Positions 11,144 to 54,077 of a DNA stretch of 64,000 bases are shown here, in pieces; position 1 is the stretch's first letter, and every line of letters begins with the position of its first letter. Below the pieces are notes generated by a model. That model saw nothing but the letters and a program-made list of their open reading frames with translations, did not search any database and was not told the origin of the DNA. Source of the stretch: Bifidobacterium aquikefiri (GTDB taxonomy: Bacteria > Actinomycetota > Actinomycetes > Actinomycetales > Bifidobacteriaceae); assembly GCF_002259795.1 (NCBI RefSeq), contig NZ_MWXA01000005.1, positions 62,001 through 126,000 of the forward strand. The letters are read 5' to 3'. The position numbers and the translations under genes are program-made.

Positions 11144-11263
11144 GAGATTTCGAGTTTTGTTGCCTTTGCAAAGTACACAGTGCAGAAATCATTGAAATAA
11201 ACACCGCCAGAAAGCGAATTTGGAGCTTTCATACCTTGTAAAGGCAACAAAACTCGAAATCTC
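11144..11263. repeat. 120-bp element with 24-bp perfect terminal inverted repeats
   Basis: Positions 11144-11167 are the exact reverse complement of 11240-11263 (24 of 24), beginning GAGATTTCGAG on the left. The 72-bp centre has no gene. The element lies between the ohyA hairpin and nadE, ending 20 bases before the nadE start, so it includes or overlaps the nadE promoter and leader. I see no target-site duplication. It may be a miniature transposon-like element, a long regulatory hairpin, or a pair of opposed operator copies. Confidence 0.75.
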
Positions 11264-24627: not shown

Positions 24628-24685
24628 CCAGTTTTGATCCCCGTTTTATCGTCCCTTTCAGCTGAGTACAGGATTCCTCCGCGCA

Positions 24686-24747
24686 GGTTGTGCGTGGTGA
24701 GTCGCATTGTGCTCGAACTCACTCAAAACCGACTTACCAAGCACGAT
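24686..24747. repeat. Inverted repeat related to the 46-kb element
   Basis: Left arm GGTTGTGCGTGGTGAGTCGC (24686-24705) is partly complementary to the right arm CGACTTACCAAGCACGAT starting at 24730. The same arms, but matching perfectly, occur at 45976-46037, so this looks like a second, decayed member of a ~62-bp inverted-repeat family. It fills part of the 276-bp gap before the metal importer. Confidence 0.6.
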
Positions 24748-24828
24748 CTGCAGAACAACTGACTCCAAAAGCACAAGCTGAGGGTTTTGCCATGACACTT
24801 GGGGATGTCTCGTCTGTACTCTATGTGA

Positions 24829-31850: not shown

Positions 31851-32277
31851 TGCGGTCGGTTTGTTGAATGGGTGAAATTGTATGAAAAACGTAACTCGTG
31901 CATAAATGAATATCGGATTGATGTGCACTATCACTATCCATGACTTCCACCCCCTAAGTTCAATAAACGATCATCGGCGACCATGCCATGAATTCAGACT
32001 GCGGTTGAGCTTTCCTCAAGATGTCATCGTTCAAGCTTCAACTTCACGGGGCAGTGATGTTACATTAATCAATGCCTTGACTCGACAAAAATTGTTGACC
32101 GACGAACAGTGTCTCCACTATGCTGCGGCAGCAACCCGTATCCCCGTGGTAGTCTCGCCTACCGACAGCTAAAGAATAGACTCGTAACTTTTTATTTGTC
32201 AACTTGTGGAATTCGCGAGTCTTGCCCGTATTCCCCTCATTTTCACTGGCAGCGCAGTGATCCTGGGAGTAGATAGT
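31851..32277. other. Divergent intergenic region, possible small open frame
   Basis: About 430 bp (610 bp from gene to gene) with promoter-like AT-rich stretches. A plus-strand frame at 31906-32172 could encode 88 residues; its second half (VIVQASTSRGSDVTLINALT...) reads like protein, but there is no ribosome site and I recognise no family. It may be a decayed gene or chance. Nothing else is clear. Confidence 0.35.
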
Positions 32278-33246
32278 GTGCGGGATACTACTTGCGTGAA
32301 GAAATTCAAGGAAAGATTCGATGTGTTCAGCGATGCAGTCTTTGCCATCATCCTTACCATCATGGTTCTGGATGTTCCGGTTGAGGTGACAAGTGGTCAA
32401 CTGGATTATATGGAGCTTGCCCAGAACATTGGCGTGTATGTGGTGAGCTTCTGTTTCGTCGCCAATTGCTGGTACAAGCATGCGCTGATGTTCAACGAGG
32501 TTGAAGAGGTACCGCATACGATCATCATTCTCGACTTTCTGCTGCTCCTTGTGGTATCCCTGATCCCTGCATTCACCAAGCTCATGATTTCGGATATCGC
32601 CCAAGGCACCGTCATGCTGTGTGGCACGGCGTATCTGATTGTCACGATTCTCGAGGTGATCATAGCCAGAGCGATGCTGCCAACAAAATATCAGGACGCG
32701 GCACAGATGAAGCGGGTCTATACCTATATATTCGGTTCCGCCTATCTGACCAACAGCGCGCTGTTGGTCGTCTTTATCGCCCTCGCATACTTCCGTCCAT
32801 ACTTTGGGCTGGTGCTGTTCATCATCATCCCCATACGTTCCTTTATCTCGAATGCCGGGAAACAGCAGAATTTCAATGATATCTCGCAGTTGGACAGTCA
32901 GGGTGTATCAAGCTTCATGAAGCTCTCGCAAGCCGACAGGCGTAGATTCCTCATGATTCTTCGCCGCTACATTGGACAGATGCGCAGCGTGGATCTCAGC
33001 AGAGACGACAAGAATGCTGCATGGCTGCGTTTCGTCAATGACGTTCAACGTTCGTTCGGAATAGACGAAGAGCAGGCGTCGCAATGGTTCCATGACGCAA
33101 CGTTGGAGCACAAGACCTATCAGACAAGTCGCGCCCGGCAGGAATCGAAGTCTCAACAACAGCACGGCAGGAGTGGGATGCAGTCTGAAACGCTGCAGTC
33201 TCGCCGCGGAAGAAGAAATCGTCATCACCGTGGCAGAAGACACTAG
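32278..33246 (+). CDS. TMEM175-like (DUF1211) potassium channel-type membrane protein
   Basis: A 322-residue protein of the bacterial TMEM175 family, whose known members are potassium channels. The hallmark RxxxFSDAVFAI sits at residues 13-24 (RFDVFSDAVFAI), followed by about six hydrophobic segments up to residue ~200. The C-terminal ~120 residues are soluble, then strongly basic (SRRGRRNRHHRGRRH at the end), longer than a minimal member. GTG 32278 is chosen because GGGAG is eight bases upstream; a further GTG at 32296 is possible. It reads toward the diflavin reductase, 90 bases downstream. Confidence 0.82.
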   Translation: MRDTTCVKKFKERFDVFSDAVFAIILTIMVLDVPVEVTSGQLDYMELAQNIGVYVVSFCFVANCWYKHALMFNEVEEVPHTIIILDFLLLLVVSLIPAFTKLMISDIAQGTVMLCGTAYLIVTILEVIIARAMLPTKYQDAAQMKRVYTYIFGSAYLTNSALLVVFIALAYFRPYFGLVLFIIIPIRSFISNAGKQQNFNDISQLDSQGVSSFMKLSQADRRRFLMILRRYIGQMRSVDLSRDDKNAAWLRFVNDVQRSFGIDEEQASQWFHDATLEHKTYQTSRARQESKSQQQHGRSGMQSETLQSRRGRRNRHHRGRRH

Positions 33247-35296: not shown

Positions 35297-35453
35297 GGGA
35301 AAGAGGGACGCTCGGGAAGGTCAGGAAAAAGAAACGCTCGGGACGACAAGGAAGAAGAACGATCGGCATGGCAGAAGGGGCATGTGTTTCAATGGCATAT
35401 AGCCTTTACATGTCAAAACCGGAAGGGCTAGTAAGCACCAGTTATGTCATGAC

Positions 35454-35487
35454 AATGCCTCGTTACGTATATGCGTAACGAGGCATT
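35454..35487. terminator. Terminator-like hairpin after the Liv operon
   Basis: Perfect 14-bp stem AATGCCTCGTTACG/CGTAACGAGGCATT with a six-base loop, 88 bases past the binding-protein stop on the minus strand. No T-run is visible on either side, so a Rho-independent role is uncertain. Confidence 0.55.
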
Positions 35488-35574
35488 GCAGTTCTTATCC
35501 GATCTCGGGGCATTCAGGTCTCAGGGTTCATACGAATATGCAGACCCGGGCTTTACACGCCCAGATTACGAAGC

Positions 35575-45850: not shown

Positions 45851-45960
45851 GCAATCCCTTCGCACATCAGCATCGTCTCATGAGTACACATGAATTCAAG
45901 ACATCACCATTGTAGAACTTCAGCCATACTGAAGTTTGCATGGTTGTCTCGGGCATGCAA

Positions 45961-46118
45961 AAGCCCGTTGCTCAGGTTGTGCTTGGGAAGTCGCCTTTCA
46001 CTTGAGTTTGCTCGAAAAGCGACTTCCCAAGCACAACATACGCAACATTCAGCGGATAACGACCAGACACATTTTCGTGCCTATAACCCGGGTTATAGGC
46101 CCAACAGCAACGGGCTTA
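45961..46118. repeat. Nested inverted repeats in the icd-lipoprotein gap
   Basis: Outer arms AAGCCCGTTGCT (45961-45972) and AGCAACGGGCTT (46107-46118) enclose a perfect 19-bp inverted repeat, 45976-45994 against 46019-46037 (GTTGTGCTTGGGAAGTCGC and its complement, 24-base loop), and the palindrome at 46079-46100. Nothing coding lies within. The inner pair recurs, decayed, at 24686. It could fold as one 158-base RNA on either strand. Confidence 0.8.
46079..46100. promoter_or_regulatory. Perfect 22-bp palindrome
   Basis: Symmetric about its centre at CCC|GGG; the inner 18 bases are CTATAACCCGGGTTATAG, with GC on each side. It lies 38 bases past the icd stop (minus strand) and about 230 bases before the lipoprotein start. 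With no loop it makes a poor hairpin, so a dimeric regulator site is plausible. Confidence 0.6.
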
Positions 46119-46137
46119 TGCAAGTTGAACAGAATAT

Positions 46138-47370
46138 TCAGTCGCTAAGTTTCCTCGCGAGTGCCTCATCCAATGCATCCATGAAGCCTTCGGTATCCAG
46201 CCATGGCTGATTTGGCCCCACCAGCAGCGCGAGATCCTTCGTCATCTTGCCAGATTCGACGGTTTCGATGATTACCTGTTCCAGATTTTCCGCAAAATGT
46301 TGCAATTGCGAATTGCCGTCCAACTTGGCCCGATGCTTCAGACCACCGGTCCAGGCATAGATGGAAGCGATCGGGTTGGTCGAGGTTTTCTCGCCCTTTT
46401 GCCAGCGACGATAGTGCCGGGTCACGGTGCCATGGGCAGCTTCAGCCTCTACTGTCTGACCATCTGGTGTCATCAGCACCGATGTCATGAGACCCAGTGA
46501 TCCGAAGCCTTGGGCAACGGTATCTGACTGCACATCACCATCGTAATTCTTGCAAGCCCAGACGTATCCACCACTCCATTTCAATGAACTGGCAACCATG
46601 TCGTCGATGAGTCGATGCTCGTATGTCAGGCCTTCTGCGTCATAGCGTTGCTTGTATTCAGTCTCGAATATCTCCTGGAATATGTCTTTGAATCTACCGT
46701 CATATGCCTTGAGAATCGTATTCTTGGTACTCAGATAAACCGGATAGTGACGAAGCAGCCCGTAGTTGAAGCATGCCCGAGCGAAACCGCTGATGGATTC
46801 ATCAAGATTATATTGCACCTGAGCTATGCCGGCACCTGGGTAGTCATAGACGAGATGCTCGATTGGGGCAGAGCCGTCTTCCGGGGTGAAGGTAACGGTC
46901 AGCTTGCCTTTGCCTGGCACAGTAAAATCGGTGGCCTTGTACTGATCGCCGAATGCATGCCTGGCAACGATGATCGGCTTGGTCCAGCCGGGAACAAGCC
47001 GTGGCACATTCGAAATGACGATTGGTTCGCGGAAAATCGTGCCACCCAGAATGTTACGGATTGTTCCATTTGGCGACTTCCACATCTTTTTGAGACCAAA
47101 TTCCTTCACACGCGCCTCATCAGGAGTGATTGTCGCGCATTTTACGCCAACGTGTGTCTTCAAAATTGCATTGGCTGAGTCGATGGTCACCTGATCATCG
47201 GTTCTGTCGCGATTCTCGATGCCAAGATCGTAATAATCCAGATTGAGTTCGAGATACGGCAGAATCAGACGATTCTTGATGTCCTTCCATATGACGCGTG
47301 TCATTTCATCGCCATCGAGTTCAACAACGGTACCCTCGACTTTGATTTTGGAAGTGTTGGTTGTGGGCAT
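46138..47370 (-). CDS. icd: NADP-dependent isocitrate dehydrogenase
   Basis: A 410-residue enzyme oxidising isocitrate to 2-oxoglutarate with NADP+, which in a bifidobacterium serves glutamate supply rather than a full citrate cycle. The homodimeric eukaryote-like type is clear: [44 protein letters not shown] and the metal-binding [30 protein letters not shown] lies five to six bases before the ATG. It is divergent from the GuaB3-like gene. Confidence 0.96.
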
Positions 47371-48661: not shown

Positions 48662-48707
48662 GATATGAATAGGCCTGTCGTACACACTCGACAGGCCTAT
48701 TCATATC
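48662..48707 (+). terminator. Terminator after guaB3
   Basis: Perfect 19-bp stem, 48662-48680 with 48689-48707 (GATATGAATAGGCCTGTCG and its complement), loop of eight bases, 45 bases after the stop. Confidence 0.8.
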
Positions 48708-53908: not shown

Positions 53909-54013
53909 TTACGTGTTTGATGCACATCGGCTTGCTTCCATTGCCGTTGTCAAATCATGAATGATTATTTCGTCTTGATTCTTGATGTCCGCAAGGTATG
54001 AAGCTCCATTATC

Positions 54014-54068
54014 AATGCGAAAGGACGGTGAGTCTGCACAACTGTGAGACTCGCCGTCCTTTCGCATT
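54014..54068. terminator. Bidirectional-type terminator after tsf
   Basis: Near-perfect long stem: AATGCGAAAGGACGG...GAGTC (from 54014) pairs with GACTC...CCGTCCTTTCGCATT (to 54068), loop of about 11 bases. The T-rich right arm ends the rpsB-tsf transcript. Confidence 0.85.
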
Positions 54069-54077
54069 GTCATACCT

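Follow-up and report, generated by a model that had tools for sequence, protein, structure and literature searches.

The layered inverted repeats at the 3' end of icd in Bifidobacterium aquikefiri are very probably explained by a small non-coding dispersed palindromic repeat, REP-like in character and probably moved in trans, one copy of which landed in the loop of the intrinsic terminator of that gene. The repeat is most aptly described as a new family of REP-like type, within a known kind of repeat. A literature search confined to open-licence papers returned no description of this hairpin repeat in Bifidobacterium. The window, that is the whole stretch of 64,000 nucleotides that was analysed (G000:C14:62001-126000), has a G+C content of 51-54% and belongs to a draft assembly of 2,408,364 bases in 18 contigs. 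Positions without a contig name are those of the window.

Layered symmetry at the 3' end of icd

The first-pass annotation had described three symmetric layers in a single intergenic gap of about 270 bp: 12-bp outer arms, a 19-bp inner inverted repeat and a 22-bp palindrome. All three are present and perfect, and the gap measures 272 bp, from icd (46138) to 45865, where the next ORF on the same strand has its upstream end. The gene at 46138..47370 is taken to be icd from its sequence; its protein is 84% identical to that of B. ruminantium, 82% to that of B. commune and 98% to that of the sister genome G018 (2,359,920 bases, one contig). The features of the locus, and the other hairpin copy that the window contains, are as follows.

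46138..47370, minus strand: icd, presumed isocitrate dehydrogenase, 410 aa; the transcript runs into the feature
45961-45972 / 46106-46117: outer arms, 12 bp, perfect
46106..46117, minus strand: 5' arm of the icd terminator stem, AAGCCCGTTGCT on the minus strand; same stem in G018, with a 21-nt loop
45961..45972, minus strand: 3' arm of the same stem, AGCAACGGGCTT followed by TT; conserved in G018
45967..46094, plus strand: long form of the putatively inserted dispersed element (hairpin, linker and end motif); overlaps the terminator arm by its first 6 nt
45973..46040, plus strand: core hairpin unit, 68 nt; 91 bits with model R1
45976..45994, plus strand: left inner arm of the hairpin, 19 bp, perfect inverted repeat with the right arm
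46019..46037, plus strand: right inner arm of the hairpin, 19 bp, perfect inverted repeat with the left arm
46068..46089, minus strand: end motif GGGTTATAGGC...ATGTG, one mismatch to GGGYTATAGGCN6GTGTG; like the terminal inverted repeat of a second family (see below)
46079..46100, no strand: palindrome, 22 bp, perfect; consists of the element right end GCCTATAACCC next to an inverted GGGTTATAGGC
24684..24750, plus strand: second window copy of the hairpin, 62.9 bits; third arm 4 nt to its right

The 19-bp inverted pair is far beyond chance, and 50 dinucleotide shuffles of the window gave a mean of 0.08 seeds per shuffle for inverted repeats with arms of at least 14 bp and spacers of 3-60. The palindrome alone is only mildly unusual, since its size was reached in 2 of the 50 shuffles and the window holds a second perfect 22-bp palindrome (32748-32769, GACCAACAGCGCGCTGTTGGTC). 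The earlier view that the symmetry is unusual is weakened in one respect, in that long hairpins as such are not rare in the window. Further long inverted repeats lie at 48662-48707 (a 19-bp perfect hairpin), 54013-54069, 35453-35488 and 11144-11263, and are perhaps terminators or further repeats. Folding of the RNA of both strands, which had been proposed as a check, gave results far better than shuffles, with z values of -8.2 and -9.0 for the two strands and none of 200 shuffles as good in either case. A riboswitch or other known RNA at the feature was considered and rejected, no match there reaching the gathering threshold; the only match was an M-box magnesium riboswitch elsewhere in the window (32016-32173, minus strand, 105 bits).

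The outer arms are the old terminator stem of icd and are not part of the element. Immediately 3' of icd the sister genome carries GAGCCCGTTGC, a 21-nt loop and GCAGCGGGCTTT (the 3' side is also given as GCAGCGGGCTTTG), and this stem folds as an intrinsic terminator with a folding energy z of -3.96. The stem in the window is the same except for an A-U pair in place of a G-U pair, and it extends to 17 bp with one mismatch (45956-45972 / 46106-46122). It is rich in G+C, lies directly 3' of icd and is conserved in G018, with a short U-run of four U in the window and three in G018; at the remaining genus loci compared, the sequence 3' of icd is, by eye, a different one. Matching outer arms of at least 9 bp are found in 1 of the 34 copies of the hairpin described below, namely the window copy, and the three-layer nesting is therefore a one-off. 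General targeting of terminators was also considered and is not supported, this single case standing against 4% of mismatched flank pairs. In the predicted fold of the minus strand the outer arms of the window still close around the insert. Because the terminator arms can still pair around the hairpin, termination of icd is probably kept near normal, perhaps weakened. The icd site is of interest as a natural experiment, in which one terminator exists in two forms, uninterrupted and with a large insert in the loop.

The dispersed hairpin family

The inner pair belongs to a dispersed hairpin repeat of about 68 nt, of which it represents one copy. A DNA similarity search of the genome found 17 distinct places, the icd site included, and a covariance model built from 17 copies found at least 34 (33 at E<=0.001, the weakest at 0.04), again with the icd site among them; 17 of the 34 are in the model and 17 are new. 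Of 571 model candidates 150 were scored, so that 34 is a lower bound, and a truncated copy at C14:657757 (L013) stands outside the count. The relative noted at 24686 in the first-pass annotation was borne out both by the model, although it is among the copies from which that model was built, and by BLAST, with E 2.9e-6 in the searched set. All or most of the long form is matched at five other places (L002-L006) with 77-85% identity, and four of these reach the end motif. In the alignment 8 of the 21 stem pairs have changed on both sides and 92.4% of cells pair. The covariation score was reached by none of 500 shuffles; the number of further pair types, reached by 13 of 500, is weaker than the other measures of covariation, all of which are to be read with the structure being derived from the same alignment and with gene conversion between arms as another way of keeping inverted repeats.

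A third arm lies outside the hairpin in 14 of the 34 copies, at a threshold passed by 1% of 2584 background windows. In all 14 it has the direction of the adjoining arm, none being found in the opposite orientation, and it stands at a distance of 4 nt in 12 copies and 3 nt in two. The third arm of C14:386743 scores barely above the threshold, that of C17:173863 falls below it, and in the G015 ortholog of the latter a third arm is visible by eye. The full unit would probably consist of three arms, in the order arm, 3-4 nt, arm-loop-inverted arm. The window copy at icd has two arms only, most simply through a deletion between direct repeats, and those copies that start with GTTGCTCAGG (the window copy, L004 and L005) resemble products of a deletion between arms 1 and 2.

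The context of the copies was taken from a crude longest-ORF caller, with ORFs of at least 80 aa for the copies and at least 120 aa for the window background, and with no gene annotation. By this caller the copies are over-represented between convergent ORFs: 14 are in convergent, 15 in tandem and 3 in divergent context, with 2 unassigned, and among 47 gaps in the window 4 are convergent and 4 divergent. The comparison of convergent with all other gaps (14/32 copies vs 4/47 window gaps) gave a Fisher p of 0.0004, and that of convergent with divergent gaps alone was not significant (p 0.16). An ORF of at least 80 aa is overlapped by 13 of the 34 copies, with the same crude caller. In the 12 nt that follow the stem foot, with both strands considered, none of the 34 copies has TTTT, as against 2 of 34 control windows; the hairpin is therefore not itself a classic terminator. 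In RNA it could form a strong 3'-end structure, with the putative role of shielding the transcript upstream of it against 3' exonucleases.

At its right end the long form has GCCTATAACCC, which is exact in C16:28601 and C15:80008 and near-exact in C15:70270 and C12:355527; L005, the fifth long-form match, ends short of it. One half of the palindrome is this right end of the element, which abuts an inverted copy of the end motif. The motif GGGYTATAGGC...GTGTG has 43 matches in the genome at up to 2 mismatches, against 1 for a reversed control pattern, and it forms the inverted ends of a second dispersed family, MITE-like and about 350-700 bp long (pairs assigned by eye), of which the following are elements.

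L007, 933-1496: second-family element
L123, 1502-2054: second-family element
L129, 1062-1652: second-family element
L138, 1179-1614: second-family element

The element in L007 is flanked on either side by the 8 nt GCGCATGT and adjoins a hairpin copy, and the direct flanks of the other second-family copies inspected are imperfect or absent. Two more copies, in L137 and L141, lie at contig ends. Among the 43 matches, by eye, no pair of facing end motifs (GGGTTATAGGC) is spaced 0.75-3 kb apart, as would be the case for a parent transposon. Blocks like GAGATCTCTCGACTCGCTGCGCTCGCTCGAGATGAC and CCTATCCCGTGATGTGAGACG...GGATAGG also recur next to some of the hairpins (flanks of L002, L004, L006, L007, L013 and L015), which suggests further palindromic repeat families in mosaic arrays.

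Presence and absence in relatives

For most of the copies compared, no counterpart could be detected in the sister genome. The comparison was based on 24 flank anchors from the 32 copies outside the window, which were sought in G018 and gave 17 sites taken as orthologous and 7 with none; four weaker matches were dropped, and the 17 together with the two window sites make 19 sites. At icd the alignment of the flanks runs from both sides into the stem arms, and between the aligned blocks there are 132 nt in the window vs 18 in G018. At the 24.7 kb site the figures between the aligned flanks are 188 and 35 nt, and at C14:386743, C13:120219, C18:54869 and C14:482787 the G018 interval is 15, 36, 66 and 51 nt, respectively. 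The interval in G018 is thus shorter than the hairpin (15-66 nt) at 6 of the 19 sites, including icd and the 24.7 kb site, although a short sister interval by itself fits an insertion here and a deletion in G018 alike. At 11 of the 19 there is no clean insertion, owing to differing fillers, longer sister intervals, straight alignment or a single aligned flank: G018 has a non-hairpin stretch of about equal length at C12:119602, aligns straight through C14:369547 with no hairpin detectable, and has a longer interval at C17:195592 and C12:58945.

The hairpin model finds 1 of the 19 sites in G018, C11:103362, and a diverged hairpin is visible there at C1:136866. Since these two hairpins stand at orthologous sites, and both copies in the genome G015 are likewise at orthologous places, part of the family is old and inherited, and the family appears older than the species split. 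A separate family specific to G018 was considered and rejected, the hairpin being single-copy there in the DNA search. Contig C1 is 176,599 bases long, and the same figure stands in a plasmid row, apparently in the B. aquikefiri column, of an extract of PMC11500810; C1:136866 nonetheless has its ortholog on the single contig of G018.

The family shows a lineage bias. The DNA search found it in none of 58 other genomes, and the model, at E<=0.01, in 3 of 27 genomes of the genus including its own (two places in G015, one in G018), with no match at that threshold in the other 24 when at most 150 candidates were scored in each. In a draw of 121 genomes of the bacterial family, treated with stricter filters, five match at E<=0.001, namely its own, G015 and, weakly, G081, G106 and G110; G018 is not among the five under these filters. 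Two of these matches (L214 and L215), in other genera of the family, are long hairpins with similar-looking arms (GTTGTGCTTGGC... and TTGTGGTGCTTTTCGGTCGTTTTC...). A plasmid or phage origin was rejected, with no match in plasmids or phages and no occurrence of the arm pattern in viral contigs.

The first-pass annotation had proposed a small mobile or regulatory element, and had set against it the case of arms unique in the genome within a gap conserved base by base in relatives as a simple terminator. In the comparison, which was made with related species, the arms turned out not to be unique, nor is the gap conserved. The proposal is supported for the inner layers, with their 33 other places and the short interval in G018, but not for the outer layer, a pre-existing terminator of icd.

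Origin of the repeat and likeness to known systems

A composite regulator, akin to a riboswitch or an attenuator and acting on icd or the gene after it, in which all three layers make up one switch, would agree with a predicted fold that pairs all layers simultaneously on both strands. However, no Rfam family reaches its gathering score at the feature, the inner layer recurs at 33 places besides this one (32 of them at E<=0.001) with outer arms of such kind at the icd site only (1/34), and the inner layers are absent from G018. This reading is largely refuted, and we regard it as extremely improbable. It is unlikely, too, that the hairpins are a species-specific style of terminator, amplified for ending transcription rather than by moving. 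The frequent position between convergent ORFs, the retention in G018 of two hairpins at orthologous sites although their stems have diverged, and the weak scores of long hairpins in other genera of the family (G081, G106, G110) are in its favour; against it are the lack of TTTT near the stem foot noted above, the copying in the higher-scoring copies of loops and linkers that termination does not need, and the good terminator already present at icd.

Two further readings place the hairpin among known mobile elements. As a genuine REP element, mobilised by a REP-associated Y1 transposase (RAYT), it would be expected to be palindromic, dispersed and mostly between ORFs, as it is (21/34 copies overlap no ORF of at least 80 aa, by the crude caller), and to occur in composite arrangements, which it also does. 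But the draft genome, from which an enzyme could be missing, has no match to PF01797 (Y1_Tnp), a model that does match in 5 of 14 control genomes. Moreover, near the hairpin foot GTAG is found in 4 of 34 copies vs 2 of 34 control windows, CGTC in 0 vs 1 and GTGG in 4 vs 1. The family is not filed as a RAYT-type REP because no Y1 transposase was found and the GTAG/CGTC tag is not clearly enriched, in which it differs from REPs with RAYT transposases, and we hold this reading to be very unlikely. The hairpin could instead be the interior of a classic MITE. In that case the full element would be longer and bear terminal repeats GGGTTATAGGC, and the window copy would be what is left of it. The long form in the window does end in this motif, as do four other copies exactly or nearly, and the second family is bounded by the same motif on both sides, yet in 29 of 34 copies the motif is absent 20-75 nt to the right of the hairpin (the side scanned, in model orientation), and next to the hairpin no facing left copy with up to 1 mismatch is present in L002 and L003, L004 being without the motif at that stringency. 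As to terminal inverted repeats, a feature of MITEs, the unit is itself an inverted repeat, and in the copies inspected the end motif stands on one side only. A MITE origin seems to us rather unlikely.

The preferred reading remains a REP-like repeat that inserted into the icd terminator. The copies would have spread through a transposition or recombination activity acting on the palindrome, and probably in trans; no mobilising enzyme was identified in the draft genome, and inspection of the site alignments by eye, with flanks about 15% diverged, showed no target-site duplication. It is conceivable, if doubtful, that the family represents a distinct actinobacterial class, a three-arm mobile palindromic repeat handled by a non-Y1 enzyme, with arms 1 and 2 competing for arm 3, be it in transposition or in an RNA switch located at the 3' ends of genes. 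REPs prefer gene 3' ends. The hairpin family is expanded in one Bifidobacterium species, in which no Y1 transposase was found, and has diverged relatives in sister species at orthologous sites; it offers a tractable case for the study of how such repeats move and whether mRNA 3' ends are protected.

Among known systems, the REPs or palindromic units and BIMEs of Enterobacteria and Pseudomonas, as described in extracts of PMC2817692 and PMC3733652, are likewise short extragenic palindromes, dispersed and composite. They differ in size and number, the hairpin being 68 nt vs 20-40 for a REP and at least 34 copies being found vs the usual >100, and the tagged REPs surveyed are predominantly from Proteobacteria (extract of PMC3733652). 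The RUP, BOX and SPRITE elements of Streptococcus pneumoniae, compared here by description and belonging to a different phylum, are also small dispersed stem-loops that are over-represented between convergent genes and insert into one another (extract of PMC3049150). Target duplications are described in the same extract for RUP and BOX, but none was detected for the hairpin, which also lacks the U-rich tract present in SPRITE. The untagged REP-like families of M. tuberculosis and D. radiodurans, compared by description as well, share with it the absence of a conserved terminal tag (extract of PMC3733652).
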